DNA from: Humibacter ginsenosidimutans
Lineage (GTDB): Bacteria; Actinomycetota; Actinomycetes; Actinomycetales; Microbacteriaceae
Direction of reading: 5' to 3'
DNA: 64,000 bases
Assembly: GCF_007859675.1 (NCBI RefSeq)
Contig: NZ_CP042305.1
Location: 1,922,001 to 1,986,000 of the forward strand
The translations under genes and the position numbers were made by a program. Below are positions 1-23,624 of this stretch, piece by piece (position 1 is the stretch's first letter; every line of letters begins with the position of its first letter). The notes under the pieces are model-generated. The model had not been told where the DNA came from and did no database searches. It was given only the letters and a program-made list of their open reading frames with translations.

Positions 1-3000
1 TGAACGGCAGGTGGAGTGTGACATGGTCGGCCTGGATCGCCGCGGGCGAGAAGCGGGTGTCGACGGCGGTGGTCGTGAAGCCGCCCGTGCTCACGGTGAG
101 GCCCGGCGCGTTGCCGAGGGCGTTCAGCACGGAGAAGTCGCCGAGGAACGCGGTCGTCGTCTTGTCGACGACCGGGACGGCTGCCGCGGCGCCAGCACCG
201 ACGGTGCCGGCAGCGGCGATGGCGCCGGCGACGACGGTCATGGTGAGCTGCTCGTTCGCGGCCACCCGAGCGTTGCCGCCTGCGTTCACGACGGAGCGCG
301 ACGACGTGCAGTTCGCCGGCGTCACCTGTGCCGCCGCGCAGTGCTCGCCGATCCACGCCTGCGTGACGATGGTGAAGACCGGCACCGCGGCGTTGACCGC
401 CACGGCGACCGCGCCGCCGCCCGCGCCGCCCGTTGAGATGGAGGTGACCGTCTCGCTCGAGGTCGCATCGACGGTGGCGTCGCCGTTCACCGTGACGCTC
501 ACCCTCGGCGCGATCCACGCCTGCGTCGTCTTGTTCAGCACCTCGACGTCGGCACCAGCTCCCACGCCCGCCGAGCCGCCGATCGCGAGCTGACCCGCCG
601 CACCCTTGAGGGTGGTGGTGTCGGATGCCGCCAGCGCGATCCCCTCGCCGGCCTGCGCTCCCGTGTTGTCGCCGTTCACCGTCACGCCGGAGTCGATGTG
701 CGCCGTGGTCGTGTCGTTCTGCACGCCGACCGTCGCCGATCCGGAGATGCCGGCGGTGCCGCCCGCGCTGCCGCCGATCGCGAGCAGTGTCACGTTCTCG
801 GACTGCGCTGCGCCGATGGCGAGGCCCGGGGCGCCGTGGGCCTGCACGTCGTCGTTCGCCGCGATGAACGCATCCACGATTCCCGTGCGCACCAGCACGG
901 CGGAGGAGACGCCGACGCCTGCTGTGCCGCCCACCGAGAGGTTGCCGGCGTAGAGGGCCAGCGTCGGCACCGTGTCAGAGGCCTGGATGCTCATGCCGCC
1001 GCCGGCATGCACCGTCGTGGGTCGCGCTCCCCCGTCGATGTAGGCGCGCGTGCCGGGACCTCCGGCGCCCTGGTTGATGACCGCGACGATGATGGAGCCG
1101 ACGACCGCCGTGTTCGTGGAGGCCCCGGCATCCACGGCCACTGCCGTCAGCGAGTCGGTGGCCGTCGCGGCGAGCAGAACGGCACCGCCGACCCGCGCCG
1201 CCACACCGTCGCCGATATAGGCGCGCACATCTTTGTTCACCACGTCGACGACGAGACCGAGCCCCACGCCGACGGAGCCCCCGGTCAGCGCGATCGCACC
1301 GGCGAGCTGCACGAAGGTCGTGGTGTCCTCCGCCGTGATCGTGATGGACTGCGCCGCGTTCACGGGCACGTGCTGGTTCACGGCCGCGCCGCCTGCGATG
1401 TAGGCCTGCGTCGTGAGATCGATGACGTCGACGATGACGGATCCGCCGATCGCGACACCGCTCGTTCCAGCGCCGCCTGCGATCGCCACAGAGGTGACCG
1501 CGATGGTGATCGAGGGGATGTCGGGCACCACGAGCGCGGCGACTCCGGCGCTCGAGGAGATCAGGATGGCACCGCCGGCGTCGACTGTTGTCGGCGACGT
1601 CGGCGACGAGTCGATGAACGCGAGCGTCGGGATGGTCAGGATGTTGACCGCGATCGCCGCGCCGACCCCCGATCCGTTCAGCGAGAGCCCGCCGGCCGCC
1701 GCGATGTTCTGCAGGCCCATCGGGTTGCTCGCCTGCACGGCGATTCCGCCCGCCGAGGTGATCGTGGAGCCCGCGCCGATCTCCGCCGTGGTCTCGAAGT
1801 CGATCACCTGCACGCCGACGGATCCGGCGACGGATGCCTTGCCGTTGCCTCCCGCCGCCGCGAGTCCCCAGACCACGAAGTCGTTCTCGGCGCCGGCGGG
1901 AGTGATCGCCTGCACGGCGATGCTTCCCGCGCTGATGCGCGTGTTCGCGCCGATGGTGCCGTCGTTGACCACGGTCGCCACGTTCAGCCCGATCCCGGCG
2001 CCGATGTTGGTGCTGTTCAGCTTGAGCGCCGTGCCGATCGACTTGGCCGTGGCATCCACCGAATCGGATGCCGCGACGACCAGTGCGCCGGTCGCCACGA
2101 CGGTCAGCCCCGCGGGGATCGTCGCCGTCGTGGTGTCGACCACCCAGTTGACCGTGACGGCCGCGCCGACACCGACGCCCTGGCCGGACTTGCCGGACTG
2201 GCCGCTGGCTTGACCGTTGGCGCTGCTCACGTTGTCGCTCGCCGACGGCAGCGTTCCCGTCGTGCCGGCCGTGCTCGGCGTGCCGTTGAGCTGCTGGCTC
2301 GCCTGCGAGTCCGAGTTGCCTGCCGTGTTCTGCGCGGCGCCCTGAGCGCTCGCCGTCGCCTGGGCGCTGCCCGCCGTCACGGTCGCCGCGCTGATCACGA
2401 CGGATGCGCCGGAGACGTTGCGGTCGGTACGCGCCGTCGTCGTGACGGTGAGGATGTTCAGCGCGATCACCGCGCCCACCGCAACACCGTCACCGGCCGC
2501 GTTCGCGTCGCCGGTCGCCGACGTGCCGCCCGTGTACGACGCCGCAATCGTCACCGCTCCGGTCGCGACGAGTCCGCCTCCCGCGGCCGAAGGCGCACCG
2601 AGATGGGCGATCGTCACCGGCGACACGACGTTGATCGCGACCGCAGGGCTCACCGCCACGCTGCTGCCCGCGGAGCCGGCCGTGACCACGGCCGTCACCG
2701 GGTCGGCCGCCGTCGCGCTGAGCGTCACGTCGCGCCCTCCGGTGAGCACGGCGCCGTCGACGACCTCTGCTCGTGTGACGTTCGTGGTGAGCACGTTGAT
2801 GGCGACGGACGCGCCCACGCCGACCTTGCCTCCGCCGCCGAGTGAGGCGTCCGCCTTCGCGGTCGCGGAGTCGGTGCGCACGTTCTGGGCCGTCAACGCG
2901 ACGTCGCCGGTGCCCGCGTATACGACGGCGGTGCCTGGCACATACGCCTCCGTGTTGTCGGTCACGAGGTTCAGGGCGACGGCGCCTGCCACGCCGATGT

Positions 3001-6000
3001 CCTTCGAACCGGCGCCGGCATCTGCTTCGACCGCGAAGGTGTGCGTGGTGTCACCGCCGACGTTCGTCATTGTCGCCGACTCGGTGAAGCCGTTGCCCGT
3101 GACGGTGGTGCCATCGCCGAGGTAGGCCTCGTTCACGAGGGTCACGAGGTTCAGGGCGACGGCGGCGCCGACTCCGACGTCCGACGCCTGAACGGCGGTG
3201 CCATCGGCTTTGACCGTGCCGTCGGCGTTCTCCGAGCTGCTCAGGCTCACTGCGCCGCCTGCGACGAGCGTCAGCCCGTTCGGCAGCGTCGCCGTTGCGG
3301 TCACATCGGCCACGTTGATGGCGATGGCGGCGGCCACGGCGACCTTGCCGTCTGAGGTGGATGCCGACGGGTTCGGGCTGCCCGTCGAGCCCGCACCCTT
3401 GTACGTCTGATCGGTGGTGCTGGCGAAGTCGCGCTGGGACTGGGCCTGCTGATCCACGTCGCCGGAGGGAGCGTTCTGACTGCTCGTGCCCGGTGCGCCG
3501 CTGGCCGATGCACTCGCCGCTGCGCCGTCGGCCGAGGATCCGTACGCGCCGAATGCGATCGCTCCGGCCGCCGTGATGTTGCGGCCCGTCGTGGCGGTGA
3601 CGGTGTGCGTGACGAGGTTGAGGCCGAGCGCGATGCCGACCGACGCTGACGATCCGCCGGCCGCGACGGCACCCGCCGAGCTCGTGGCGCCCGCGGTCTG
3701 GTAGGCGTTCGCTGCGAACGACCCGCTGATGACGAGTCCTCCGGTCGTGATCGTGCCGATCTGCGCCGAGGTGACGACATTGGAGATGGTGATCGCGATC
3801 GCCGGGGTCACCGCGACCTTCGCGCTTCCCGTGCCCTGCGCACCCATCTTCGCCTCGGTCGTGGCGAGGTCTCCGGCACGAGCCGTCAGGGTGAAGTCAT
3901 GGGCACCGGTCACCGTGATGCCGTCGTCGAGCAGCGCCGTCGTGGTGTCGGTGACCAGGTTGAGAGCGACGGATGCCCCGATGCCGACATCGCTCGCGCT
4001 CACCCCGCCCGGTGTCGGCTCCGCCTTCACCGTGCTCGTCGCGTTGCTGCCGGCCGTGATCGCGACATCGCCGCCGGTCAGCGTGACGACACCGGAGAGC
4101 TCGGCGAGGGTGGTCTGATTGACCACGGCAAGCGCGAACGAACCGGCGACGGAGATCTTGCCGTCGCCCGCACCGCTGGCGGACTGCGCGCCATAGGTGC
4201 TCGTGGCATCCGTGCCGCCCGTCGACGTCGTGAACGGCGTCTCCGTGGCACTGACCGTGAGTGCGTGCGCGTGGACGGTGTCGCCCTGCGGCAGTCGCGC
4301 CGTGTTCGTCACGTTCGCGAGCGTGATCGCGACGGCGGCGCCGACCGTGGCCGAACTTCCGTGCGAGGCGGAACCGTCTGCGTCGGTCGCGGCGTCGGTG
4401 TTCTGACTGGAGGCGAGGGTGACCAGTCCGCCCGCCGTGATGTCGAGACCATCGTGCTCGATGGTCGCCGTCGCGGTGACCGTCGCGATGGTGATGGCGA
4501 TGGCCGCAGCCACGTTCACCTTGCCGTCGCTCGTCGAGGCGCTCGGCGTCGAGGTGCCGCCAGAGCCCGCGACGTGGTTGTTCGCGGCCGACTGGTCGGC
4601 GAAGTCGCGCTGACCCTGCACCTGGCTGTCGACGCCGTCACCGCTGGAACCGCTGGAACCGCTCGACTCCGGCGCTCCCGACGCCGACGCCTGCGCCGCT
4701 GCGGCGGAGGCCGAGACGCCGGACGCGGACAGCGTCACGTCGCCACCGGCCACGATGCTGCGGTCGGTCGTTCCGCTCACGGTGTGGTTCGCGATCGTCA
4801 GGCCGAGCCCGACGCCGATCGCCGCCGAGGACGATCCGCCCGTCGCGGCTCCGGCGGTGCTCGAGGCGCTCGCGATCTGCGTCGCCTGCGCTGCGAGGTT
4901 GCCGCTGAGCTGGATGGCCTTCGGCAGCGAGCCGATGCGCGCGGTGGTGGTGACGTTCGACAGCGTGATCGCCACGGCAGGGGCGACGGAGACCTTGCCG
5001 CCCGTCGCGCCCATCTTCGCCTCTGTCGCGGCGTCGTCTCTGGCGGTCGCCGTCAGCGTCACGTTGCGAGCACCGATGAGGGCGATGCCGTCGTCGAGGG
5101 TCGCGGTCGTGGTGTCCTGAATGAGGGCGAGCCCGACGGACGCCCCGACTCCGACGTTCGTCGAGGTCACTCCGCCCGGTGTCGGCTCCGCCTTCACCGT
5201 CGTGGATGCCGCGCTCCCCGCCACCACACTCGCGTCACCGCCCGTCAGCGTCACGGTTCCGGCCAGCTCGGCCAGCGTCTGCTGGTTCACCACGGCCAAC
5301 GCGAACGAACCCGCCACGGAGACCTTGCCGCCACCGGCACCCGACGTCGACTGCGCACCATACGTGCTGGTGGCATCGGCGCCATCCACGGTCTCCGTCG
5401 CCGAGACGACGAGGCTCTTCGCGTGCACGGTGTCGTTCTCCGGCAGCACCGCCGTGTTCGTCACGTCGGCCAGCGTGATCGCCACCCCGGCACCGACGTT
5501 CGCGGTGCCACCCTGCGTCGCCGAACCGTCCGCCGAGCTGGCGGCATCCGTGTTCTGGCTCGACGACAACGTCACCGTGCCGCCGGCCGTGAGGTCGAGA
5601 CCAGCGCCCGAAATGGTGGCGGTCGCCGTCACGGTGGCCAGATCGATGCCGATCGCCGCGGCGACGTTCACTCCGCCGTCGGACGTGGTGGCCTTCGGCG
5701 TGCTCGCCGAGCCCGTGCCCTTCACGCCGTTGTTCGCCGCTGACTGATCGGCGAAGTCGCGCTGGCCCTGCACCTGGCTGTCGACGCCGTCGCCGGCACC
5801 ACCGCCGCTGCCCGCACCGCCTGAACCGTCCGTGCTGTTCTCCGGCGCACCCGACGCGGATGCCTGCGCGCCGGCTGCCGAGGCCGACTCGCTCGAGGCG
5901 CTCAGCGTGATGTTCCCACCGGCGTTCACGCTGCGTGCTGTGGTCGCGGTGACGGCGTGGTTCGCGATCGTGAGCCCGAGACCGACACCGACCGCAGCAG

Positions 6001-9000
6001 AGGATCCGCCGCTGACGACGGCACCGGCGGTGGTCGAGGCGCTCGCCTTCTGGGCCGCGCTCACGGTCAGCGACCCGCTCAGCTGCAATGGGCCGCCGAA
6101 GGTGCCCAGCGAGGCGGACGTGGTGACGTTCGACAGCGCGATGGCCACGGCGGGAGCGATGTCGACCTTGCCGCCCGCGGCACCCATCTTCGCCTCGACC
6201 ACCGCAGCATCGTCGGCGGTGGAGGTGAGCGAGACATTGCCTGCGCCGATGATCGCGATGCCGTTGTCGAGCGCCGCCGTCGTGTCGTCCTCGATCAGCG
6301 CGATGGCGACCGAAGCCCCGACGCCCACATTGGTGGAGGTCACCCCGCCGGGAGTCGGCTCCGCCTTCACCGTCGTGGATGCCGCGCTCCCCGCCACCAC
6401 ACTCGCGTCACCGCCCGTCAGCGTGACCGTACCGGCCAGCTCGGCCGACGTGGTCTGATCGACCACCGCCAACGCGAACGAACCCGCCACGGACACCTTC
6501 CCGCCACCGGCACCCGACGTCGACTGCGCACCATACGTGCTGGTGGCATCGGCGCCATCCACGGTCTCCGTCGCCGAGACGACGAGGCTCTTCGCGTGCA
6601 CGGTGTCGTTCTCCGGCAGCACCGCCGTGTTCGTCACGTCGGCCAGCGTGATCGCCACCCCGGCACCGACATTCGCGGTGCCACCCTGCGTCGCCGAACC
6701 GTCCGCCGAGCTGGCGGCATCCGTGTTCTGGCTCGACGCCAACGTCACCGTTCCGCCGGCCTTCAGATCCAGTCCGGTTCCCACGATCGTGGCGGTCGCG
6801 CTGATCGTCGCGAGGTCGACGCCGATGGCCGCCGCCACGTTCACGCCGCCGTTCGAGGTCGTCGCCTTCGGCGTGCTCGCCGAGCCCGTGCCCTTCACAC
6901 CGTTGTCGGCCGCTGACTGATCGGCGAAGTCGCGTTGCCCCTGCACCTGGCTGTCGACGCCGTCGCCGGCACCACCGCCGCTGCCCGCACCGCCCGAGCC
7001 GTCGGCGCTGTTCTCCGGGGATCCTGCGGCCGATGCCTGCGCCGTCGCTGCCGAGGCCGACTCGCTCGAGGCGCTCAGCGTGATGTTCCCGCCTGCGTTC
7101 ACGCTGCGTGCTGTGGTCGCGGTGACGGTGTGGTTCGCGATCGTGAGCCCGAGACCGACGCCGACCGCAGCAGACGAGCCGCCCGTCACGACGGCACCGG
7201 CGTTCGTCGCGGCACTCGCCTTCTGAGTCGCCGCGATGGTCAGATCGCCGCTCAGTGAGAGCGTTCCGCCGAATGTGCCGATCAGCGCCTGCGTCGTCAC
7301 GTTCGACAGCGCGATGGCCACGGCGGGAGCGATGTCGACCTTGCCGCCCGCGGCACCCATCTTCGCCTCGACCACCGCGTCGTCGTTCGCCGTCGACGTG
7401 AGGCTGATGTCGTGAGCGCCCGTGATCGCGATGCCGTTGTCGAGCACCGCCGTCGTGTCGTCCTCGATCAGCGCAAGGGCGACCGAAGCCCCGACTCCGA
7501 CGTTCGTCGAGGTCACTCCACCCGGTGTCGGCTCCGCCTTCACCGTCGTGGATGCCGCGCTCCCCGCCACCACACTCGCGTCACCGCCCGTCAACGTGAC
7601 CGTACCGGCCAGCTCGGCCAGCGTCTGCTGGTTCACCACGGCCAACGCGAACGAACCCGCCACGGACACCTTCCCGCCACCGGCACCCGACGTCGACTGC
7701 GCACCATACGTGCTCGTCGCATCCGCCGTCGGCCCGCTCCCGTCGACCGTCTCCGTCGCACTCACGGTCAGTCCGTGCGCGTTCACCGTGTCGCCGGTCG
7801 GCAGCTTGGCCGTGTTCGTCACATCGGCCAGCGTGATCGCGACAGCGGCCCCGATGGTGGCGGTCCCACCCTGGGATGCCGAGCCGTCTGCCGCAGAGGC
7901 GGCGTCGGTGTTCTGGCTCGACGACAACGTCACCGTTCCGCCCGCTTTGAGCGTGATGCCCGTGCCCACGATCGTGGCCGTCGAATCCACCGTCGCGACG
8001 ACGACCCCGATCGCGGCCGCGACGTTGACCTTGCCGCTCGACGAGCTCGCGCTCGGCGTGGCCGTGGAGCCGGACTTCGCGCCGCCGTTGGCCGCTGCCG
8101 TGTCGTCGGCGTTCGTGCGCTCCTTCTGGATCTGCTGGTCGACACCGTCGCCCGCGCCACCGCCACTGCCCGCGCCGCCCGCGCCACCGCCACTGCCCGC
8201 GCCGCCCGCGCCGTCAGCACTGTTCTCCGGCGCACCCGACGCCGATGCCTGTGCCGATGCCGCCGACGACGAGATGCCCGAAGCGCTCAACGTGATGCCG
8301 CCGCCCGCCGCGATCGACCGCGCCGTCGTGCCGCTCACCGTGTGGTTCGCGACGGTCAGCGCCAACCCGACGCCGACGGCGGCCGTGGTCCCACCGGCCA
8401 CCACCGCGCCGGCCGAGGTGTTCGCCGACGCGTTCTGCGTGGCCGACGACGTGACGTCGCCCGATGCCGAAAGACCGGCGCCGAGCGTCCCGATCACGGC
8501 CGCGGTGGTCACCGTCGAGAGGGTGATCGCCACGGCGGGTGCGATGTCGACCTTGCCACCCGACGCCCCCATCTTCGCGTCGGTCAGAGCGTCATCCTGA
8601 GCCGTGCTGCTGAGCATGACGTTGCGCGCGCCGGTGAGCGCGACGCCATTGTCGAGAGTGGCCGTCGTGGTGTCGGTGATGAGATTGAGGGCGACGGATG
8701 CCCCGACCCCGACGTTCGTCGAGCTCACTCCGCCCGGTGTGGGCTCCGCCTTCACAGTGCTGGCTGCTGCGCTGGCCGCCACCACGCTCGCGTCTCCGCC
8801 GCCGAGGGTGACGGTGCCTGCCAGCTCGGCCGTCGTGTGCTGGTTGATCACCGCGAGGGCGAGCGACCCCGCAACGGAGACCTTGCCGCCGCCGGCACCC
8901 GACGTGGACTGCGCGCCATAGGTGCTCGTGGCATCGGTGCCGTTCACGGTCTCGGTCGCGCTCACGACGAGAGCGTGCGCGTTGACGGCATCGCCCGTCG

Positions 9001-9437
9001 GCAGCACCGCGGAGTTGGTGACGTCGGCCAGCGTGATCGCGACGGCGGCGCCGATCGTGGCCGTCGCACCCTGGGATGCCGAGCCGTCTGCCGCAGAGGC
9101 GGCGTCGGTGTTCTGACTCGACGCCAACGTCACCGTGCCACCGGCCTTGAGCGTGATGCCCGTGCCCACGACGGTCGCCGATGCTGTCACTGTCGCGACG
9201 ACGACCCCGATCGCGGCCGCGACGTTGACCTTGCCACTGGAGGTGGAGGCGCTCGGCGTGGCGGTCGATCCGGACTTCGCGCCGCCGTTGGCCGCCGCCG
9301 TGTCGTCCGCGTTCGTGCGCTCCGTCTGGATCTGTTGGTCGACACCGTCGCCCGCACCACCGCCGCTGCCCGCACCACCGGAACCGGCAGCGCTGTTCTC
9401 CGGCGCACCCGATGCCGATGCCTGGCCCGCCGCGGCG
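1..9437 (-). CDS. giant beta-strand-repeat protein, continuation after frameshift (runs off left edge)
   Basis: This is the same gene read in the neighbouring frame. The repeat signature VKAEPTPGG is in one frame at about 9927 and in the shifted frame at about 8753, 5195 and 4028. Coding signatures further down (for example TTQAWI at about 515 and LTVSTGG at about 92) stay in that shifted frame, and I see no stop to position 1. About 3,145 codons lie here, so the protein exceeds roughly 7,100 residues. Positions about 3400-9440 hold six of the roughly 390-residue tandem units. Below about 3400 the repeats are shorter and more divergent, built from GVGxxVxVxN segments ending in TxAYI or TxAWI. 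A rare Cys pair (HCAAAQ...NCTS) occurs near position 330. The C-terminus and any anchor lie outside the window. Whether the intact protein is made depends on whether the frame break is real. Confidence 0.8.
5330..6673 (-). repeat. near-identical DNA tract between adjacent repeat units (offset 1173 bp)
   Basis: Roughly 170 bases around 5330-5500 recur with no difference that I can see at about 6503-6673, an offset of 1173 bases or exactly 391 codons. The flanks carry only scattered changes, and parts of the tract also recur near 7680. Nucleotide identity, not only protein similarity, implies recent duplication or gene conversion between units. Confidence 0.75.
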
Positions 9438-9439
9438 GG
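9437..9439 (-). other. apparent +1 frameshift site in giant gene
   Basis: Compared with the equivalent stretch of the unit near 8240-8310, the segment from about 9417 to the GATCGAC near 9490 is one base longer (76 versus 75). Removing one G from the GGG at 9437-9439 restores the repeat reading (SASAAAGQASASGAPEN). The run is only three bases, so programmed slippage is unlikely. A sequencing or assembly error, or a real mutation, is more likely. Confidence 0.75.
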
Positions 9440-12400
9440 AGGCCGACGCTCCGGACGCGCTCAGTGAGAGATCGCCGCCCGCTGTGATCGACCGTGCCGT
9501 GGTGGCGGCGACCGTGTGGTCGGTCACGGTGAGCGCGAGTCCGACGCCGACAGCTGCTGTGCTTCCCCCGGCGACGACGGCGCCCGCCGACGTGTTCGCC
9601 GACGCGTTCTGGGCGGCCGATCCGCTGAAGTCTCCGCTGAGCGACAGGATCGCGCCGAGCGTGCCGACCACGACCTGTGTCGTGACGGTCGAGAGTGTGA
9701 CAGCCACTGCGGGCGCGATGTCCACGCTGCCGCCCGATGCGCCCATCTTCGCGTCGGTGAGGGCGTCATCGCTTGCCGTGCTGCCGAGGGTGACGTTGCG
9801 TGCGCCGGTGAGCGCGACACCGTTGTCGATCGAGGCGATCGTGGTGTCGGTGATGAGGTTCAACGCGACAGAGGCACCAACGCCCACCTTCGACGTCGTC
9901 ACACCGCCCGGAGTCGGCTCCGCCTTCACCGTCGTGGATGCCGCGCTTCCCGCCGTCACGCTCGCGTCGCCGCCGCCGAGCGTGACCGTGCCCGCCAGCT
10001 CGGCCGTCGTGTGCTGGTTGACCACGGCGAGTGCGAGGGAGCCTGCCACGGAGACGTTGCCGCCGCCTGCGCCCGACGCGGACTGCGCGCCGTAGGTGCT
10101 CGTGGCATCCGTGCCGCCCCCGTTCTGCGGAACGGCGGTCTCGGTGGCGGAGACCGTGAGATCGTGCGCCTTGATCGTGTCGCCGGTGGGCACGAGCGCC
10201 GTGTTGTCCACGTCGGCGAGTGTGATGGCGACGGCGGCGCCGATGTTCGCGCTCGACGCCCCGGCCGCCGACCCGTCGGCGCTCGTGCCCGCATCGGTGT
10301 TCTGGCTCGATGCCAGAGTCACCCGTCCGCCTGCCGTCAGCGTCAGACCGCTGTGATCGATGGTGGCCGTGGAGGTCACCGTGGCGACCACGACGGCCAC
10401 GGCCGCTGCGACGTTGACCTTGCCACCCGACGTGGATGCGCTCGGGGTCGAGGTCGATCCGGACTTCGCACCGCCGTTCGCCGCCGCTGTCTCGTCGGCG
10501 TTCGTGCGTTCGTTCGCGATCTGCTGGTCGACGCCGTCGCCCGCACCGCCACCGGCGCTGGAGTCGCCGGGAGCACCGCCCGCGGATGCGGAAGCCTGCG
10601 CCGCCGATGCCGAGCTGCCGAACGCGGCGAACGCCAGGTCGCCGCCCGCCGTGATCGAACGGTCGGTCGACGCCGTCACAGAGTGATCCGCGATCGTCAG
10701 GGCGAGTCCGACGCCGACGCCAGCGGTGCCGCCGGTCGCCACGGCCCCAGCGGTCGTCGATGCCGACGCGTTCTGAGTGGCGGAGGCGTCGAAGGATCCG
10801 GAGATGCTCAGCGCCCCGGATGCCGCATCGACGTGCACGCTCGTGGTCACTGTCGACAGCGCCACGGCGACCGCAGGCGTGATGCTCACCCCGCCGCCTG
10901 CGGCGCCCATCTTGGCCTCGACGACCGCATCGTCGTTCGCGGTGCTCGTCAGCGTGAGGTCGCCGGTCTTCGTGAATGTCGCGGTGCCTGCGACGGACGA
11001 TGCCGTCGTGTCCGTGATGATGGCGAGCGCGACGGATGCCCCGACGCCCACACTCGATGCCGACACGCCGCCGGGCGTCGGCTCCGCCTTGACCGTGCTG
11101 GATGCCGCGCTGCCCGCCGTGACGGCGGCGGCGCCCGCGCCGCCGAGGTTCACGCTGCCCGCGATGACGGCGGCGGTGTGCTGGTTCGCGATCTCCAGGG
11201 CGAGCGAGCCGGCGACGGAGACGTTGCCGCCGCCAGCGCCGCTGGCGGACTGCGCGCCGTAGGTGCTGACGGCATCCGTTCCGTTCACCGTCTCGGTCGC
11301 CTGCACGACAAGGGCGTGCGCGACGACCGAGTCACCGGCGGGCAGCGTCGCCGTGTTGTTCACGTTCGCGAGCGTGATCGCGACGGCGGCTCCGATGTCG
11401 GCGCTCGAGGCTCCGACGGCCGAACCGTCGGCGCTCGTGCCCGCATCGGTGTTCTGGCTCGACGCGAGGGTGACGGTGCCGCCGGAGCTCAGCGTGAGAC
11501 CGGTGCCGACGACGGTGGCGGTGACGTTCACCGTGGCGACGACGACGGCGACCGCCGCCGCGACGTTCACCTTGCCCTGCGAGCTCGACGCGCTCGGCGT
11601 GGCCGTCGACCCGGACGTCGCTCCGCCCGACGCGGCCGAGGTGTCGTCAGCGTTCGTGCGCTCCTTCTGCAGCTGGCTGTCGACGCCATCGCCTGCGGCA
11701 CCGCCCGACCCGCTGCTCCCGGGAGCGCCGGCGGCGGACGCCGACGCCTGTGCTGCGGAGGACGAGGTGCTGGACGCCGTCAGCGAGAGGTCGCCGCCCG
11801 CCGTGATGGATCGTGCCGTCGTGGCGCCCACCGTGTGGTTCGACAGGGTGAGGGCGAGGCCGACTCCGACCGCCGCGCTCGAAGCTCCCGTCGAGACGGA
11901 GCCGGCTGTCGTCGATGCCGACGCGTTCTGCGTCGCCGTCGCTGCGAAGGCACCGCCCAGCTGCAGAAGGCCGCCGGTGCCGACCGTCGCCCGGGTCGTG
12001 ACCGTGGAGAGCGTGACGGCGACGGCCGGTGACAGGTCGACGCCACCGCCTGCGGCACCCATCTTCGCCTCGGTGGTGGCGGCATCCGTCGCCGCGCTGG
12101 TGATCGTGACATCGCCCGCCCCGCTGAACGCCGATCCGTCCGCCACGGTGGCGACGGTGCTGTCGGTGACGAGGTTCAGTGCCACGGAGGCGCCGACGCC
12201 GACCTTGCCGCCGGAGACGCCGCCCGCAGAGGGCTCGGCTCGCACGGTGGATGCCGCCGAGCTGCCCGCCGTGACGCTCGCGTCCCCGCCGGTGAGGGTC
12301 GCGGTCCCCGCGAGAAGCGCCGTCGTGTTCTGGTTGACGATCGCGATAGCGACGGACCCCGCGACGGAGACTGTGCCGCCGCCCGCCCCGCTCGCGGACT

Positions 12401-15400
12401 GCGCGCCGTAGGTGCTGGTGGCATCCGTTCCGTTGACGGTCTCCGTCGCACTCACCGTGAGGCCGTGCGCGTGCACCGTGTTGCCCGCGGGAAGCGACGC
12501 CGTGTTGTCGACATCGGCGAGGGTCAGGGCGACGGCCGCGCCGATCGTCGCCGTCGCGCCCTGGGATGCCGTGCCGTCGGCGGCGCTGCCCGCGTCGGTG
12601 TTCTGGCTCGCCGCGATGGTGACGGTTCCGCCGGCGGCGAGGGTGATGCCCGTGCCCACGATCGTCGCGGTCGACTTCACCGTGGCGACGACCACGCCGA
12701 CCGCTGCCGCGACGTTGACCTTGCCGCTCGAGGTCGACGCGCTCGGCGTCGCTGTGCTGCCCGAGGCGGCCCCGCCGTTCGCGGATGCCGTGTCGTCGGC
12801 GTGCGTGCGCTCTCCCGCGATCTGCTGGTCGACGCCGTCGCCGCTGCCGCCCGCACCACCCGACGATGAGTTGTCCGTGGCGCCCGATGCCGACGCCGTG
12901 GCCGACGAGGCCGAGGCCGAGGTGCCCGTCGCCTGCAGCGCGATGGCTCCGCCGACCGTGATCGAACGTGCCGTCGTCGCCGTCACGGTGTGGTCGGCGA
13001 TGGTGAGCGCGAGGGCCACACCGACCGCCGCCGTCGATGCGCCGCCGACCGAGGCGTCGGCAGTGCTCGACGCCGACGCGTTCTGCGTCGCGCGCACGAC
13101 GAGGTCACCGCTCGCCGTGAGCGTCGCTCCCGTGCCGATGGTGGCGAGCGTGGTGACGGTCGAGAGCGCCACGGCCACCGCCGGAGCGACGTCGACGCCG
13201 CCGCCGGACGCGCCCATCTGCGCCCGCGCGGTCACGGCGTCCGCCGCCGTGCTTGTGAGCGTCACGTTCGCCGCACCGGTGAGGGCCGCGCCGTTCGCGA
13301 TCGTCGCCGTGGTCTGGTCCGTGACGATGGCGAGGGCTGCCGACGCGCCGACTCCCACAGTGCCTGGCGATACTCCGCCGCCCGTCGGCAGCGCGTCCGC
13401 TGTCGTCGTCGCGTCGCTGCCCGCCGCGATCGTCGCGTCACCGCCGGTCAACGCGGCGACGCCGGCGAGCTGGGCCGTCGTTGTCTGGTTGACGATGACG
13501 AGGCCGAGGGATCCCGCGACCGAGACGTTGCCCCCGCCTGCACCGCTGACGGATCGGGCACCGTAGCCGGAGATCACATCCGTGCCGTTCGCGGCCTCGG
13601 TCGCCGAGAGGCTCAGGGCCTTCGCGTGCACGGTCACGTTCTGCGGAAGCACGGCGGTGTTCGTGACGTCGGCGAGGGTGATCGCCACGGCCGCGCCGAT
13701 CGCCGCCGACCCGCCACTGGACGCCGAGCCGTCTGCCGAGGTGTCGGCATCCGCGTTCTGCTGCGCGGAGAGCGACACGGTTCCGGCCGAGGTGAGAGTG
13801 AGGCCGCTGACCGAGTTCGAGACGGTGGCCGTCGAGCTCTGCGTGGCCACCACGATCGCGACGGCAGCGGCGGCGTCGATCTTGCCGCCCGAGGTCGACG
13901 CAGACGGCGTCGACGTGACGCCGGTGGGGTTCGTGCCGCCTGCCGCGCCGTTCGCCTTCGCGGTGTCTCCGGCGAACTGCCGCTGGGCCGCGACCTGGTC
14001 GTCGACACCCGAGCCGCTCGACCCACCGCCGCCCGACGCCTGCTGCGCACCCCCTGCCGACGCCGTCGCCGTCGAGACTGATGACCACAGCCCGGTCGCC
14101 CCGAACGCGATGTCGCCGCCGGCGTTGATGCTCCGCGCCGTCATGGCATGCACATCGTCGTTCGCGATGGTCAGCGCGAGGCCGATGCCGACGGCCGCCG
14201 TCGAGGCACCGGTCGCCACGGCGCCCGCCGTCGCCGACGCCGTCGCGGTCTGGGACGCCGTCACCGAGAGACCTCCTGTGAGCGTCGTCGTACCCGCCAG
14301 TGTTCCCACGCTCGCCGATGTGGTGACGTTCGCGAGGGTCACGGCGACCGCCGGCGTGACGGCGACGCCGCCGCCGCTTGCTCCCATCTTCGCCTCGGCG
14401 CTGGCGGCATCCTTCGTCGTCGCGCTCAGCGTGATCGACCCGACGCCCGTGACGACCGCTCCGTCGGCGATGGCGGCGACGGTCGAATCTCCGATCAGAT
14501 CGAGAGCGACGGATGCCCCGACTCCCACACTGCCGCCCGACACTCCCGACCCGACCGGCTCAGCCTGCACTGTCGACGAGGAATCGCTCGTCGCCGTGAC
14601 CGTCACGGCCCCCGCCCCGGCGATCGTCACCGTGCCTGCGACCTGAGCCAGAGTGTCGAGACTCAGCGTCGCGAGAGCCAGCGAACCTGCGACGGAGACC
14701 TTGCCGCCGCCCGCGCCGCCTGCTGACTGAGCACCGAACGTGTGGGTGGCGTCCGTGCCGTTCTGCGTGACGGTCGCGGAGAGGACGAGCGCGTGGGCAT
14801 GGATCGTGTCGCCGGTCGGCAGCACCGCGTGGTTGACGAGGTGGACGAACGTGATGGCGACCCCGGCGCCGATCGAGGCCGATCCGGGTGCCACGGCCGA
14901 GCCGTCGGCCGACGACGCGGCATCCGTGTTGGCGCTCGATGCCAGCGTGACGGTGCCGGCCGCCGTGAGATCGATGCCGTTTCCGACGATGGTCGCTGTC
15001 GAGTCGCTGTTCGCGACCACGACGGCCACGGCCGCCGCCACGTCGACGCCGCCGTCGCTCGTCGACGCCGACGGCGTGCTCGTCGACCCTGACCCGGCGC
15101 CGCCGTTGGCCTGCGAGGTGCTGTCGGCGAAGCTGCGCTGATCGGCCACCTGCTGGTCGACGCCCGATCCCGCACCGCCTGCGGTGCCCGCGCCCGGTGC
15201 GCCGGCGGCCGAGGCCGTGGCCTGGGCGGCCGACGCCGAGATGCCGGATGCGGTCAGCGTGAGATCCCCGCCCGCGTTCAGCGAGCGGGCAGTCGTCGCC
15301 GTCACCGTGTGGTTCGCGATCGTGAGCGCGAGGCCGACGCCGATGGCCGCCGACGAGGCATCCGACACCGCTGAGCCCGCAACGGTCGACGCCGACGCGC

Positions 15401-18400
15401 TCTGCGTCGCGGCCACGCTGATCGCCCCGGTCGTGGAGATGGTCGCTCCCGCGAGCAGCGCCGCGGCCGTCGTGACGTTCGAGAGCACCGTCGCCACGGC
15501 GGGCGCGACGGCGACCCCGCCGCCCGACGATCCGGACTTCGCCTCCGCCGTCGCGGCATCCGTCGCGACTGCCGAGAGAGCCATGGAAGCGGCTCCGCTC
15601 ACCGTGCCCGACACCGTGGCGCTCGTCGTGTCGGTGACGAGGTCGAGGGCGACGGATGCCCCGACCCCCGCCTTCGTCGCCGTCACGCCACCCTCGGTCG
15701 GCTCCGCCTTCACGGTCGAGGTCATGCTCGAAGCCGCACTCACCGCTACCGCGCCCGCCCCCGACGGCGTCAGCGCGACATCGCCCGCGAGCAGCGCCGT
15801 CGTCTGCTGCGTGACCACCGCGAGCGCGAGGGACCCGGCGAGCGAGACGCTGCCGCCGCCCGCACCGCTGGTGGCCTGAGCGGAGACGGTCGAGCCCGTG
15901 TCGGCGCCGTCGACCGCGACAGTCGCGGAGATCGTCACTGCGCCCGCCTGCACGGAGTCGCCGGCGGGCAGCATCGCCTCGTTCACCGCGTGCAGCAGCG
16001 TGATCGCCACGGCCGCGCCGATGACGAGGTCGGACGTGGAGACCGCCGATCCGTCCGCCGTCGTGGCGGCGTCCGCGTTCTGCGCGGCGGAGATCGTCAC
16101 GGCGCCGCTCGCGGTGAGGGCGACGCCCGTGCCGACGATCGAGGCTGTCGCACTCGGAGTCGCGACGACCACCGCGACGGCGGCCGCGGCATCCACCCCG
16201 CCCTGCGACGTGGCCGCGCTCGGTGCCGCCGTCGACCCCGGGCCCTGTGTGCCGGTCTGGCTCGCGAAGCCGGAGGCCGCCCCCTTGGCGTCCGTCACGT
16301 TCTGGTCGACACCCGTGCCCGAGGCGCCGGATCCCTGGGGTGCACCCGACGCGGAGGCGGTGGCCGATGCCGTGCTGCCGCTGATTCCGGTGGCCGAGAC
16401 GGTGATGGATGCCGCGCTCACCGACCGCGCGACAGAGGCCGTCACGTTGTCGGTCGCGATCACGAGGGCGAGTCCCGCGCCGACCGCCGCGGTGGCTCCG
16501 CCTTGGACCGCGCCCGTCGCGGAAGCGGATGCCGTCGCATGCTGCTGCGCGCTCACGGTGACGGCACCCGACGCGGCGAGCAGCGCCCCCGTGCCGATCG
16601 CGGCCGTCGTGGTGACGTTCGCGGAGACGACCGCTGAGAACGGGGCGACGGACACGTTCGCCGACGAGGCGCCGTCCTGCGCTGTCGCGGTCGCGTCGTC
16701 GTGCGCGAGCGCGGAGAGCGTGATGTCGGAAGCCCCGGTGACGTCCGATCCGTCGCCGATCGCGGCGGTCGTCGTGTCGTTCTCGAGGGCGAGTGCGAAG
16801 GAGGCGCCGATGCCGGCCGTCGATCCGCCCGTGCCGTTCGCCGCCATGAGGGCGGAGACGGTGGAGACGACGGCGGAGGTCGCCTGAGCGGAGAGCGCGC
16901 CGCCCGTGCCGGCGGAGCCGAGTGTGACGGAGGGTCCGATGCCGCCGCTGGTCAGAAGGGCGGCCGAGGTGGTGACCGTCGCGGTCTGGAGGGCGACGGA
17001 ACCGGCGACGCCGAGCGTTCCGCCGCTGCCCGCACCCGCGGTGGCGGTGGTGCTGAAGCGATCGGTGGCGTCTGCTGCGCCGGATGCGGTGGTCGGGCCG
17101 ACCCCGGCGGTGAGGCTGAGTGTGGTGGAGGTGATGACGGTGTGGGGTCCGACATTCGCGGTGACCGTGACGTCGGCGAGAGTGACCGCGACAGCGGCCG
17201 CGATGCTGGTTCCGCCTCCCGGTGGTGCGCGCGTCGACGGGCCGCCCGACGCGGTGGTCGCTGTCGAGGCGTTCTCGGTGGCGGTCAGGCTCACGCCGTC
17301 GGCGATGATCGTGACGCCGTCGATGGAGGCATCCGCGCTCGCGCTGTGCACCGTGATCGACACGGCCGCCGACACGCTCACGGTTCCGGCGGGCGTTGCC
17401 GGGGTCCCCGGTCCCGGGCTGTCGCCGGTGCCGCCCGCGCCGCCGGGAAGCCCGCCGCCGGAAGTGGGCGCCTCACCGTCCGCGAAGCCGCGAGCGCCGG
17501 AGGCGAGGTCGGCGGGCGACGGGCTGCCTGCGGCATCCGTTCCGCCCGCGCCCACGTTCGACGCCGTCGCGCTCGTCACTGCACTCGAGGCGCCGTCGGC
17601 CGTCAGGCTGAACGTGCCGCCCACCGTCACGTCGCGAAGCGTCGTGGCCTGCACCGACTGGTTCGCGTAGGTCTGCGCGACGGCGACGCCGAGCGATCCG
17701 TCCGCCTGCGCCTCACCCGTCGCGGTGGTGGAGACTGTGGCCACCTGATGCGCCGTCGCGGTGTAGTCACCGGTCAGGGTCAACAGCGAGCCGGTGTCGG
17801 TGTTCGCCGTGGTGCGCACGTTCGAGGTGGTCAGCGCGTAGACCGGGGCCACCGCCACGTCGGTCGAGTACGCGCCGCCGCGTGCCAGCGTCGTGGCAGG
17901 CGACACGGATTCCGCGTCGAGCGTCAGGTCGTGGGCGCCGGTCAGCGTCGACCCGACTGCGAGGCCTGCCGTCGTCGTGTCGTTCACGACGTTGAGCGCG
18001 ACGGATGCACCGATCCCGGTCGCCGCACCCGTTCCGTCCGTGCCGGGCGCCGCCGTGGCCAGGTCGGTGTCGTTCGACTTCGCCGTGAGTCCCACATCGG
18101 TTCCGGATGCCGTCACCTGCGCGCCCGAGACCTGAGCGCTCGTCTGCAGCGTGGCCACGTTGATCGCCACCGATCCCGCGACACCGACGTTCTTCGCGCC
18201 ACCCGCACCGGAGGTCGCGCTCGCGGAGAAGGTGTTCGTCGCGCCGTCCGTCGCGGGCGCGGTCGCCGCCGCCACGTCGAGCGCGGGGGTCGTCAGTGTC
18301 ACTCCGGACACGTGCGCGTCTGTCGTGACATTCGCACTGTTCACCGCGACGGCCACGCCGACGCCGTTCGGGTCGCTCGCCGCCGCGCTGCCGTCCGCGG

Positions 18401-21392
18401 AGGCGCTCGAGCCGCCCTCGTTGCTCGCGTGCACGCTCACGGGTGCGCCACCGGTCGAGCCGGTCGTGCCGGTCACCGCGATCACGAGCCCGCCGCTGAT
18501 CGGGGCGATGTACGCGCGAGTCGACTGCTGCACGTCGGAGTAGGCCAACGCACCCGCGACATCGATCGTGCCGCCCGGCGCCTTGGCCCTGCCATCCGTG
18601 GTCGCCGACGGCGACTGGTCGTTGCCGGTCGAGCCGCCGGGGCTCGCCTTCGCCACCGTGACGACCACGTTGTCGGAATCGGCCGAGACATCCACGCTTC
18701 CGGCGTTCACCCCGAGGTCGCTGTTGCTGTCGATGTACGCCGCGGTGTTGCTCGTCACGCGGGTCACGCCGATACCCGCTCCCGCGGTCGCCGCCGTGGC
18801 GTCCGCGGTGGTCGTCACTGCTGTGTTGTTCGACGCGGCGAGGGTGAGCGAGCCGCCTGCCCTCACGCTGGCCGTTCCGCCGACGTGCGTGGTGGCCGTG
18901 CTGTCGATCGCGGCGGTGGCGAGTGCGGCGTCCACAGCCGAGTCGGCGCCCGTGCCGGTCGAGGCGACGGTCGCCGTCACCGTCGATGCGCTGGCGAGCG
19001 CGACCGCCCCGAGTGCATCGAGCACCGCCGATCCCGTCACCGAGACCAGAGCCGACGACGAGGCGTTCACGACGTTCTCGCCGACGACCGGCGTCGCCGA
19101 CGGCGTCTGGGTGGCCGTGGCCGAGAGGGTGATGGTGCCACCGTGGATCGTGGCCGAGTCGACGGAGACCGCAGCGGATGCCGCCGTGCCGGTCTCGGCA
19201 TCCGTAGCCGCGAGGGTCACATCGCCCGCGGCCCCGTTCGACCGCGTGTCGATGGTGACGCCCGGGTCGACGGTGATGCTCGCGGCGTCGATCTCGATGC
19301 GGGCTCCCGGCAGCAGCAGGTCGCCCGCGATGATCACGGCGACCCCGGATGCCGTCGCCGCGATGGTCAGCGACCCGCTCGGCACGTCGATGGTCTGGGT
19401 CTCCATCGCCGGCGAGCTCACGATGAGGTGGCCGGCTCCGTCGGAGGTGACCGTGACGGTGTCGTTCGCCGTCGCCGGGTTGACCACCACGTCGGTGACG
19501 CCGGTGATGGTGACCGGCTCGAGTCCGGTGTAGGTCACGAGGTGGCCGCCGAACGAGACCGTGCCGCTCGACGGGTCGCTCGGGGTGGAGACGACGGTGC
19601 CGCCGGCGCCGTGCAGCACGAGCGTGTCGTAGCCGCCTGCGCCGCCGTCGACGATGCCGTCGAGCGAGCCGTTCGGCGAGAACACGAACGTGTCCCGGTT
19701 GTTCGCCGCGCCGATCAGGTTCTGGAAGCCGGAGAACGACTGCTGCGCGACGGTCCCGGAGTCGTGGCCCGTGACGTTCCACGTCGTGTCGGCGCTCGGT
19801 CCGTGCAGCGAGGTGCCCGTGCCGGTCGCGGCGATCGTGCGAACACCGCTGTACGCGACGCCGGCGAGAGTCGGGGCCGAGACGGTGCCGCCGGTCGTCG
19901 AGTCCGCCGTCCAGTCGAGATCGTTGCCGACGACCGCGACGGTGTCGGCGCCCGACCCGGAGAACGTGATCGGCACCGTGACCGCTCCTGCCGACGTGTC
20001 GATCGTCAGGCTCACGGCCCGGCCGTCGACACTGCGGATGAGCGCCGAGCTGAGCGAGGAGATGGCGACGCGCGTGAGCACACCGCCGTCGTCGATTACG
20101 AGGTCGCCGCCGTCGACGTACACGCGCACGCTGTGCGGCGCGCTCGTCGTCTGCACGGTGTACGTGTACGCACCCGGCGTGGTCGTCGCCGACCCGCTCG
20201 TCGTGGAGGTGGATGCCTGTGCGCCCGCCGCCGAGTCCTGGCTCGCCGTCGAGTCGCTCTGGCCCGCACCGGTCTGACCGGTCGCGGCCGGCTGCCCGTT
20301 CGCGGCACCGCCGGTCGTTCCGTCAGAGGCCGCCGGGGTCTGCGTTGTCGTCCCGCTCCCGTCCTGACCGGCCGGCGTGGTGGCCGCAGCGCCGGACGGC
20401 GTCGCGGCATCACCGCTCGTGCTCGGTGTCGTGGCGCCCGACGGGTCCGACGCGCCCGACGCACCTGAGGAGCTCGGCTGCGACGTGGCGTCCGACGTGC
20501 CCTGCCCGGAGCCCGACGTGCCGGTCGACGAGGGGTCGGCGGCCGGGGTGCTCTGCGAGCCGGAGGTCGCGCCGGTGTCGGTGCCCGAGGCATCCGGTGC
20601 GTCGAGCCGCACGACGTGGGTGCCGACCGAGGCGCCCATGCCGCCGTGCAGCACGGCATCGCCGTCGGCGCTCGGCGTCGAGGCGGGATCCGGAGTGGGC
20701 GTCGACGAATCTGTCGGCGTCGGCGTGGACGAGTCGGTGGGCGTGGGAGTCGAAGAGTCGGTGGGCGTCGGCGTCGAGGAATCGGTCGGCGTGGGAGTCG
20801 GGGTCGGAGTCGGCGTCGACCCGCTCCCGGACTGCGTCGAGCCGCCCACCGTCGCCGGCCCGGTCGTGCCGGGTCCGCAGACGAGCGTGCTGCTCGAGGT
20901 GCTGCTCGACGACGAGCTGGTGACCGTTCCCGTCGTGGGATCCACCGTGGTGGTCGGCGTGCTCGCCGGCGCGGAGCCCTTGGTCATGTGGCAGTTCGAA
21001 CCGTACGGCGATGTCGTCGTCTGGTGCGGGACGATCGTCGCCCGCACGCCGTTCGGCGTCTGCGACACCGCGCCCACCAGCGCGCTGATCACCGAGGAGT
21101 CCACCGGCTGCGTGGTCGTCGTGGTGCCGGAACGCGTGATCGTCGTCGGTGTCGCCGTCGGGGTGACAGTGGGAGTCACGGCTTGCTGGGGCACCTGCAC
21201 CTGCAGTGTCACGGTCGAGGATGCCTGCGGTTCTGCCGCCTGCGCGGGGCCGCCGATCACGACGCTCTGCGCCAGCGCGAGAGCGAGTGCCGCCAGCGCG
21301 GCGACCAGCGCGAAGGCCACCGATCCACGACGCGCGCCGACCACCGCCGAGTCCATGGCTCGGCCCATGCTCGTGCGCGCTTCACGTGCCAC
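9438..21392 (-). CDS. giant secreted beta-strand-repeat adhesin-like protein, N-terminal part
   Basis: About 3,985 codons before an apparent frameshift at 9437-9439; left uncorrected, this frame ends at a TGA at 8592-8594. The GTG start is fixed by an in-frame TGA two codons upstream. Residues 1 to about 52 form a signal peptide: a positive N-region, an Ala/Leu/Val core at about 24-45, and an AQA cleavage motif. Residues about 55-440 are low-complexity Pro/Thr/Ser/Gly/Gln sequence with a PTPTDSST octad repeated at about 195-235. Residues about 450-650 resemble the entry domain of large filamentous adhesins (motifs TTWNVTGHDSGTV, SFSGFQNLIG, DGGAGGYDTLVL). After that come beta-strand repeats with AYI, GVGASVAL and STVTT signatures. 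The composition is Ala/Gly/Thr/Ser/Val with almost no Cys. Export is supported; adhesion is inferred from family resemblance only. No cell-wall anchor is visible because the C-terminus is outside the window. Confidence 0.85.
20692..20820 (-). repeat. 24-bp coding repeat (PTPTDSST stalk)
   Basis: About four copies of a 24-base unit encode the octad PTPTDSST within the low-complexity stalk behind the signal peptide. Pro/Thr spacers of this kind usually act as extended, O-glycosylatable stalks in actinobacterial surface proteins. The copy number could vary by slippage. Confidence 0.8.
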
Positions 21393-21496: not shown

Positions 21497-21783
21497 TGAC
21501 TTTTCTCCCCCTGAACGAAACGACGGCACAGGCGACGTCTCAGAGCGTCACGGCGTGTCGCACGCGCTGGCGCGGATCGGCCGATCGAGCACCAGAGTTG
21601 ACTGTCCCTCGAAAAGGGGGTGGGCCGCCACGACCCCGAACGAGGCACGGCCGGTTCGACGCCTCCGGTTCGTCACCGTCCGCCACGTGCCCCGGGCACC
21701 ATTCAGGTCGAACGGCCCCTCGCGCACCCCGTGTGTCGACGGCCGGCCCCGTGGACCTGAATCATGTGCGGCAACGCGCGGGC
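21497..21783. other. intergenic spacer, no gene seen
   Basis: No convincing coding sequence on either strand; open frames here have no recognisable product or start signal. One notable element is an inverted repeat, ATTCAGGTC at 21701-21709 and GACCTGAAT at 21754-21762, of unknown role. Confidence 0.5.
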
Positions 21784-22013
21784 GCGCTGCGCGCTCGACT
21801 GACTCAATCGGCCCGGTTGAGCACGCGAGCGTGCTCTGCTCCCGCCTCAATCGTCAGTAGTCGCGCTGCGCGCTCGACTGACTCAATCGGCCTGGTTGAG
21901 CACGCGAGCGTGCTCTGCTTCCGCCTCAATCGTCAGTAGTCGCGCTGCGCGCTCGACTGACTCAATCGGCCTGGTTGAGCACGCGAGCGTGCTCAACCAG
22001 GCCTCAATCGTCA
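21784..22013. repeat. three tandem 79-bp repeats downstream of purH
   Basis: Copies start at 21784, 21863 and 21942. The first two are complete and differ by a few bases; the third diverges after its hairpin arm and runs into the purH stop codon. Each contains GGTTGAGCACGCGAGCGTGCTC. In the third copy this extends to a perfect stem, whereas in the first two the distal arm is replaced by CTGCTYCCGCC. The array looks like duplication of a purH 3' end plus part of its terminator. Confidence 0.9.
21968..22003 (-). terminator. purH: purH terminator-like hairpin
   Basis: A perfect 15-bp stem (21968-21982 with 21989-22003) and a 6-base loop lie 8 bases beyond the purH stop. There is no U-tract, which is common for actinobacterial terminators. 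Confidence 0.6.
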
Positions 22014-23624
22014 GTGGAAGAAGTGGCGCTCTCCGGCGAAGTACATCGTGATGCCTGCGGCCTTCGCGGTGTCGATCGTGAGCTGGTCGCGGATCGATCC
22101 GCCCGGCTGCACGATTGCCTTCACGCCGGCCTGGATCAGGATCTCCGGACCGTCGGGGAACGGGAAGTAGGCATCCGACGCCGCCACCGATCCCGAGGCG
22201 CGATCGCCCGCGCGCTTCACCGCCAGGTCGCACGAGTCGACGCGGTTCACCTGCCCCATTCCGACACCGACGGATGCCCCGTTCGACGCCAGCAGAATGG
22301 CGTTCGACTTCACGGCACGGCACGCCGTCCACGCGAACTCGAGATCGGCCAGCGTGGCCTCGTCTACGGCGTCGCCCGCCACGAGCGTCCACTCCGATGC
22401 GGGCGCGAAGTGCCGGTCGGACTCCTGCACGAGCGCGCCGCCCGAGATCTGCTTGACCTCCGTGGTGGGCAGTGCGAAGTCGGGCCGCAGCTTGAGGATG
22501 CGCAGATCCTTCTTGGTCTGCAGCAGCTCCAGCGCCTCCTGCTCGTACTCCGGCGCGATGATCACCTCGGTGAAGATCGGCTTCACCGACTGCGCCATGG
22601 CCAGCGTGACGGTGCGGTTGGCCGCGATGACGCCGCCGAACGCGGAGGTCGGGTCGCACTCGTGGGCCTTGCGGTGGGCATCCGCGATGTCGTCGTTCTC
22701 CCCCGTCACGGCGATGCCGCACGGGTTGGCGTGTTTGATGACCGCCACCGCGGGCAGTTCGAAGTCGTACGCGGCGCGCAGTGCGGCATCGGCGTCGACG
22801 TAGTTGTTGTACGACATCTCCTTGCCGCCGAGCTGCTCGGCCTGCGCGATGCCGTTGCCGTCGGCGCTGGCGTAGATGGCGGCGGCCTGATGGCTGTTCT
22901 CGCCGTAGCGCAGGGATGTCTCGCGCGTCCACGTGCGCCCGATCCACGCAGGCAGACCCGCGCCTTCGCCCTCGGCGCCCGCGTCGTCCGGTGCGAGCTC
23001 GCCGCCGAGCCACGTGGCCACGGCGACGTCGTAGCTCGCCGTGTGGCGGAACGCGTCGCGGGCCAGCTCGGCGCGGAACGCCAGTGTCGTGCCACCCGCT
23101 GCGACGGCATCCGCCACCTCCGCGTAGCGCGACGGCGAGGTGACCACGGCGACGTTGGCGAAGTTCTTGGCGGAGGCGCGCACCATGGCGGGGCCCCCGA
23201 TGTCGATGTTCTCGACGATCTCGGCCGCGCCGGCCCCGGAGGCGACGGTCTGCGCGAACGGGTACAGGTTGCTGATCACGAGCTCGAACGGCTTGATGCC
23301 GAGCTCGCCGAGCTGCTGCTCGTGGTCCTCCAGCCGCAGGTCCGCGAGCAGTCCGGCGTGCACCGCAGGATGCAGCGTCTTCACCCGGCCGCCGAGCGAC
23401 TCGGGGAATCCGGTGAGCTCGGTGACGTCGGTGACGGCGATGCCCGCCTCGCGGATGACCCGCGCCGTGTTGCCCGTGGAGACGAGCTCGACGCCCGCCG
23501 CGTTCAGCGCGGTGGCCAGCTCGACGATGCCGGTCTTGTCGATGGCCGAGAGCAGGGCCCTGCGCACCTGCACGAGGTCGCGTTCGCGGTAGAGGCTCGG
23601 GTCTGCGGCGTGCGGCGCGCTCAT
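22011..23624 (-). CDS. purH: bifunctional AICAR formyltransferase / IMP cyclohydrolase
   Basis: 537 residues, the usual PurH length. It catalyses the last two steps of purine synthesis: formyl transfer from 10-formyl-THF to AICAR, then ring closure to IMP. The N-terminal MGS-like cyclohydrolase domain shows DKTGI (29-33), STGNTA (49-54) and [13 protein letters not shown] (79-91). The transformylase domain shows RYGENSHQ (239-246) and KHANPCG (297-303), whose Lys-His pair is catalytic in the family. The ATG overlaps the purN stop by four bases (ATGA at 23621-23624), so the two are translationally coupled. Some in-frame codons extend upstream, but they lie inside purN and are not homologous sequence. 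Confidence 0.97.

Follow-up and report, generated by a model that had tools for sequence, protein, structure and literature searches.

The window analysed here, a 64,000-nucleotide stretch of Humibacter ginsenosidimutans (Microbacteriaceae), corresponds to genome 1922001-1986000 of a genome assembled as a single contig of 4,183,638 bases. Its left part is taken up by a giant gene on the minus strand, which starts at window position 21392 and extends 11,585 bases past the left window edge to a stop codon at genome 1910416, for a length of 32,977 nt. In its unbroken form, this gene probably encodes one giant cell-wall-anchored filament of ~11,000 residues. A first-pass annotation, which was confined to the window, had taken it for one protein exceeding 7,100 residues. 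The size holds for the unbroken gene; as assembled, however, the gene is divided between two different open reading frames (ORFs), ORF1 and ORF2. The picture of a giant, secreted-looking and repeat-built protein in an actinobacterium is supported. We also confirm its start at 21392, its signal-peptide-like N-terminus, the Pro/Thr/Ser-rich segment and the repeats up to the left edge. Extension to the left located the C-terminus outside the window, at the stop given above.

All features described below lie on the minus strand. ORF1 (window 8592-21392, 4,266 aa) opens with a GTG start and an N-terminus ending in ...IGGPAQA/AEP (21237..21392), which resembles a signal peptide by its translation and hydrophobic stretch, judged by eye. 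It is followed by a low-complexity segment (20028..21236) with 49% Pro, Thr and Ser over 406 residues. Because the sortase anchor sits at the C-terminus, this segment would be placed at the free tip of the filament, and the earlier term 'stalk' is probably the wrong word for it. Behind it lie an N-terminal head domain (19215..20027), recognised by sequence comparison, and a segment that joins the head to the first super-unit (18573..19214; translation and unit search).

The body of the protein is built from 15 super-units, each 355-399 aa long, with linkers rich in Ser, Gly and Ala; eight super-units lie in ORF1 (the eighth cut) and seven in ORF2. Super-units 1-7 (10428..18572; 377-394 aa each) are LktA_tand_53-like repeats. 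The first part of super-unit 8 is read in the ORF1 frame (9440..10424; model positions 1-323 of 381), its remainder in the ORF2 frame (9236..9436), as are super-units 9-15 (1115..9235; 355-399 aa each). The reading frame changes at 9426..9463, and the translation of ORF1 beyond this point (8592..9439) is an out-of-frame tail rather than real protein sequence. The last stretch within the window (1..1114) belongs to ORF2, which continues beyond the left edge with further repeats, a conserved C-terminal domain, an Ig-like domain (by model) and a LAPTG sorting signal before the stop.

Compared with one another, the window's 14 unbroken units are 25-87% identical in amino acids, and autocorrelation gives periods of 383-391 aa and, further on and weakly, of ~54. 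LktA_tand_53 (NF012206) matches 12 of these 14 units at E <= 0.01 (best E 1.4e-20). At protein level it scores 54.9 bits in P0003, the back part of ORF2, and 27.7 bits in P0001, which is under the cut-off of 50. The structure prediction of one unit proposed in the first-pass annotation gave an all-strand repeat, apart from one helix at residues 348-366 beside a low-confidence linker (mean predicted local distance difference test score, pLDDT, 80.3; predicted template modelling score, pTM, 0.80). The modelled fold is most likely a beta-solenoid. Since the units have diverged from one another and the same unit family occurs in other species, the repeat array is no simple assembly artefact.

Probable export and anchoring at the cell wall

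At the C-terminus, LAPTG is followed by a hydrophobic stretch and RRRRRA. The sorting-signal model TIGR01167 scores 16.4 bits on the protein (cut-off 15.9) and 25.1 bits in a search of the genome, where the giant ranks fourth best of 25 matches; 18 of these exceed the cut-off, although two do so only when neighbouring matches are counted in. A LAxTG-like motif is found near the C-terminus in all 11 sortase-clade proteins inspected, with I for L in G126 and S for T in G180 and G127, and LAPTG itself also occurs in the homologue P0005. The genome holds one match to the sortase family PF04203, which NF033747 assigns to class E (226.5 bits, cut-off 160); the sortase gene lies near genome 2,808,904. 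Class E sortases are described in PMC5148588 as acting on LAXTG signals. The case for anchoring is built on three things in combination: the motif, the fact that relatives conserve it, and the class E sortase. Three points weigh against it: TIGR01167 is unspecific (9 of 14 control genomes also have matches above the cut-off), PF00746, the Pfam model for such anchors, has no match in this genome, and NF058582 stays under its cut-off on the C-terminus (18 versus 27). The search for LPxTG/sortase, SLH and choline-type anchors thus returned LAPTG and a class E sortase, and no Pfam family, including TPS, SLH and choline-binding, matched P0001 or P0003 at E <= 1. The 'unknown anchoring route' of the first-pass annotation is not supported by these results.

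As a side observation, some of the many TIGR01167 matches lie in open frames of more than 1,000 aa. Within the limits of this unspecific model, one class E sortase may have a sizeable set of substrates.

From these elements we suggest the following route. The N-terminal signal sequence, recognised by eye, would take the chain through the Sec pathway. Outside the cell, the chain would fold into a very long filament, of the order of 100-200 nm by a rough estimate from the rise per solenoid turn, with the 15 observed super-units most likely forming a beta-solenoid. The class E sortase would then cut at LAPTG and link the C-terminus to the wall. The head and the Pro/Thr/Ser-rich segment would in this case point outward, where they may contact surfaces or other cells. 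In the form in which the gene is assembled, the front part would be secreted without an anchor and the back part would not be exported.

Two other export routes have to be weighed against Sec and sortase. The whole protein could be a two-partner or autotransporter (type V) adhesin, and the strand-rich repeats as well as a second look at fold matches, whose rows include HxuA and EtpA, recall such proteins. Yet neither piece of the gene has a Pfam match as stated above, and the C-terminal sorting signal is of Gram-positive type. The TpsB family ShlB (PF03865) was not found in the genome at E <= 1, in line with the earlier remark that no TpsB-type partner is in view; this is a weak test, as 0 of 14 control genomes scored over the cut-off. 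Taken together, we regard a type V adhesin as extremely improbable. Exit by a type I (ATP-binding cassette, ABC) route instead of Sec, which we judge nearly as implausible, would be suggested by an ABC transporter gene downstream that scores on type I secretion ATPase models, and by C-terminal GGxGxDxF motifs that recall RTX (repeats-in-toxin) proteins. The transporter falls far below the cut-offs, however (TIGR03375, 285.8 versus 693.1; TIGR01846, 280.7 versus 725.55), as many ABC exporters do. There are just three GGxGxDxF motifs, all in ORF2, and a Pfam scan of P0003 at E <= 1 did not list PF00353. Moreover, the protein has both a signal-peptide-like N-terminus and a sorting signal.

The ABC transporter gene (genome 1904898-1906769) is the third gene downstream of the giant gene, after a dimethylargininase-like gene and a Glu/Leu/Phe/Val-type dehydrogenase gene. 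Upstream, the neighbour is purH (window 22011-24017). At window 21783-22015, separating purH from the giant gene, a hairpin-rich repeat of 79 bp is present three times in tandem. Related copies, several of them in tandem, occur elsewhere in the genome (15 matches in total; fold z-score -8.1), and the repeat looks like an intergenic palindromic repeat family.

Homologues in the family and the frame change in super-unit 8

A profile of the C-terminal domain matched 13 of 398 genomes drawn from the Microbacteriaceae. Ten of these 13 encode the protein in single stop-to-stop frames of 9.6-12.3 thousand residues, so that the search for actinobacterial homologues longer than 5,000 residues suggested earlier finds ten other genomes of the family with single frames above 9,600 aa. 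The ten include two unbroken congeners (10,669 and 11,036 aa), with two other listed congeners giving no match, and the looser relatives G049 (Agrococcus) and G069, which are without the full unit array. In two matching genomes the gene is split, namely in G028 (Diaminobutyricibacter sp. McL0608) and in the one that the window comes from, and the last, G275, contributes only a 945-aa frame from an 80-contig assembly. Counting rows over 60 bits only, the unit profile finds 15 units in G103 and G126, 14 in G057 and G327, 13 plus one partial unit in G180, and 12 plus one partial in G268. G057, a congener, matches Humibacter sp. RRB41 letter for letter across the 14,152 bases compared. Draws from the order and the phylum, which overlap and include the window's own genome, gave 10 of 396 and 4 of 396 matching genomes, some with frames of 10-13 thousand residues.

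Two of these genomes hold more than one giant. Agrococcus (G049; L051-L054) has two homologues, one with a frame of 11,102 aa and one with a frame of 12,277 aa. The former lacks LAxTG within its C-terminal 160 residues, and it clusters with a protein from Marinobacterium. G502, from another family of the phylum, has three matches on one contig (frames of 11,695, 13,159 and 7,448 aa).

Among the homologous proteins listed (9 of 777 scored, the window's own P0004 included), two are direct homologues over the C-terminal 1,061 aa: P0005 from JGI, named LPXTG-motif cell wall-anchored (74% identity), and P0006, a 'beta strand repeat-containing protein' of Diaminobutyricibacter sp. McL0608 (62% identity, 94% covered). 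Both are front-truncated as listed; P0006 starts mid-unit and P0005 lies on an 18-kb contig. The listed P0004 (6,733 aa) likewise starts in the middle of a repeat unit and has no signal peptide.

In the Humibacter genome itself, ORF2 amounts to 6,924 aa from its first start (window 9190), runs past position 1 and overlaps ORF1 at 8592-9190. In ORF1, normal repeat sequence persists to about window 9440, where it gives way to Arg-rich sequence; the final ~285 residues of this ORF are out of frame. The ORF2 frame has a stop at 9463, and normal repeat is readable in it from ~9436. ORF2 begins within a unit and without a signal peptide. As this mid-unit start goes together with single frames in 10 of 13 matching genomes, the two congeners included, we read ORF1 and ORF2 as descending from one ancestral gene. 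They are most likely one giant gene that is either broken or mis-sequenced here.

Which of these applies is about an even call. Should an error of sequencing or assembly lie behind the break, living cells of the strain would produce the anchored protein at full length. In support of this, the gene is in one frame in ten relatives, including two congeners, and the break coincides with a GC palindrome of 14 bp (9426-9439, perfect). G028, the sole other split homologue with a full-length domain match, is likewise a one-contig assembly. Against it, words of 25 or more bases around the break occur once in 82 kb, hence reads should map, and four other one-contig genomes (G127, G180, G268 and G327) are unbroken. 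In addition, the link to the palindrome was drawn after the fact, and the gene is poorer in perfect 14-bp palindromes than its shuffled versions (3 versus a mean of 6.5). The converse, a real and recent inactivation or a shedding variant in which the cell secretes the front part without an anchor and loses the back part, is a serious contender, though short of an even chance. It takes the assembled letters as they stand, and the G028 homologue (L039-L040) is also split, in its unit 10, near the same unit position (model 319 versus 323) albeit in a different unit and a different local sequence. What speaks against a real break is that no phase-variation-type simple repeat is visible by eye at the break and that constraint is not relaxed on either side. 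Using our own Nei-Gojobori script against G057 and G126, the ratio of nonsynonymous to synonymous substitutions (dN/dS) is 0.21-0.30 in one N-terminal region before the break and 0.16-0.26 in three C-terminal regions after it. Neither side thus looks free of selection, although these regions exclude the super-units and a recent break would leave no trace in dN/dS.

Two splits at a similar unit position might also suggest programmed ribosomal frameshifting that joins both frames. We consider this very unlikely: two congeners are open throughout in one frame, the local sequences at the two splits differ, and G028 seems to change frame again one unit later.

Shared domains and different ends in other phyla

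Proteins with the same C-terminal domain are also encoded in Cyanobacteriota, Verrucomicrobiota, Planctomycetota and Pseudomonadota. They include giants with an N-terminal LEPR-XLL motif (NF012209), which have frames of ~8.8 thousand residues. This motif was found in three of the five relatives whose N-termini were scanned, namely Marinobacterium nitratireducens, an Oceanospirillaceae metagenome-assembled genome (MAG) and Ramlibacter ginsenosidimutans. Their C-terminal domains are homologous to that of the Humibacter giant at 36-37% identity. The head located behind the LEPR-XLL motif in the Marinobacterium and Oceanospirillaceae giants is likewise homologous to part of the Humibacter head, with E about 1e-27 to 1e-28. 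For Marinobacterium L065, the match spans 179 aa at 39% identity (E 4.7e-28, or 2.8e-29 with a 380-residue query; the best of 20 shuffles of that query reached E 0.23). The head is homologous in Oceanospirillaceae and P0007 (E 8.6e-24) and weakly so in Rubripirellula (L064, E 6.5e-9), and it found no match in Ramlibacter (L067), two cyanobacterial proteins and the second Agrococcus protein. The Ramlibacter giant contains LktA_tand_53 under the cut-off (24.7 versus 50). Its relative in Ramlibacter montanisoli (L019) has a frame of 3,682 aa compared with 8,817 in L016, and may be split as well.

Unlike these giants, the Humibacter protein has a signal-like start, a Pro/Thr/Ser-rich segment and a sorting signal, and no LEPR-XLL was found in P0001 (E <= 1) or in window 18800-21392 (E <= 0.001). 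Further relatives share the C-terminal domain: P0007 and P0008 (~7,030 aa; C-terminus as in the Verrucomicrobia locus L012) at 49% and the Rubripirellula homologue (L013/L064) at 38%. P0007 and Rubripirellula show a LEPR-like motif by eye; NF012209, scanned on L064 of the two, is not reported there. For a Desmonostoc protein, PF14252 is listed, named DUF4347 by the source.

The ~390-aa unit is far more restricted. Full units were found in Microbacteriaceae only, and P0005 and P0006 are the two of the eight other listed homologues that contain them. Weak partial matches appear in P0007, P0008, P0009 and P0012 (best 46.4 bits; full-protein E 5.5e-8 to 3.6e-29), none above 60 bits in P0007 and P0008, and none at all in P0010 and P0011. 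The match in P0012 appears only without the bias filter. Of 8 shuffled proteins, 0 gave a match to the profile.

A quick, unrooted tree with 29 rows groups the 12 rows of sortase-type Microbacteriaceae as one side of a branch with a Shimodaira-Hasegawa-like approximate likelihood ratio (SH-aLRT) support of 100, and it places the Agrococcus protein without visible LAxTG beside Marinobacterium lutimaris (SH-aLRT 97). The tree and its alignment (A3) cover 17 of 20 loci with the C-terminal domain (L023, L025 and L026 are left out); the tree also leaves out G069, G275, P0007, P0008, P0011 and duplicates of L007, L008, L018 and P0006. Without a root, with no support values other than SH-aLRT and with long branches (a warning concerns G327 with G268 and three more), the tree does not fix the direction and number of transfers.

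That the Humibacter giant shares homologous head and C-terminal domains with Gram-negative giants, while the export and anchor ends differ and the unit array turned up in Microbacteriaceae alone, is the least expected of our results. We tentatively propose that a giant filament crossed envelope types by exchanging its ends. The head and C-terminal domain would have been kept across phyla, and in one well-supported branch of the Microbacteriaceae a signal peptide, a mucin-like tip and an anchor for class E sortase would have taken the place of the LEPR-XLL start seen in Gram-negative forms, with the body rebuilt as a tandem array of ~390-aa units.

The giant among known surface proteins and its meaning

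Giant surface proteins are known from other Gram-positive bacteria, among them the actinobacterium Mobiluncus. In staphylococci, Ebh and Embp are giant surface proteins whose repeats are helical bundles; they resemble the Humibacter giant as Gram-positive surface proteins near 10,000 aa and differ in repeat fold. PMC11573180 mentions a homologue in S. aureus of almost 10,000 aa. The LPxTG adhesin of 7,651 aa from Mobiluncus (PMC10619420) is also giant, repeat-built, equipped with a C-terminal LPxTG anchor and found in a bacterium of the Actinomyces family. Its repeats are Ig-like and cross-linked (PMC10619420), whereas those of Humibacter are LktA-like and modelled as strand-rich. With this adhesin in print, the claim that the locus is a candidate for undescribed biology is not supported. 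Filamentous proteins with LktA_tand_53 share the repeat family; the super-unit organisation and the ends are peculiar to the Humibacter giant, and its likeness to LktA concerns the repeat family only, with no sign of toxin activity. Among the literature matches listed (titles and beginnings of abstracts), none concerned this protein, whether from Humibacter or from elsewhere in the Microbacteriaceae, and Humibacter combined with adhesin returned no papers.

Taken together, the protein is most likely a wall-anchored adhesive filament, with adhesion as its presumed function. The kind of protein is already known; this one has an LktA-like body, a class E sortase anchor and ends that are exchanged in comparison with its homologues in other phyla. 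Annotation can hide such genes, as in P0004, whose listed start lies within a repeat, so that the signal peptide is missing. If the proposed exchange of ends is true, a protein of ~11,000 residues could be refitted to a different envelope through its end modules, while the head and C-terminal domain persist, and the body and the export address of such giants would become separately testable.
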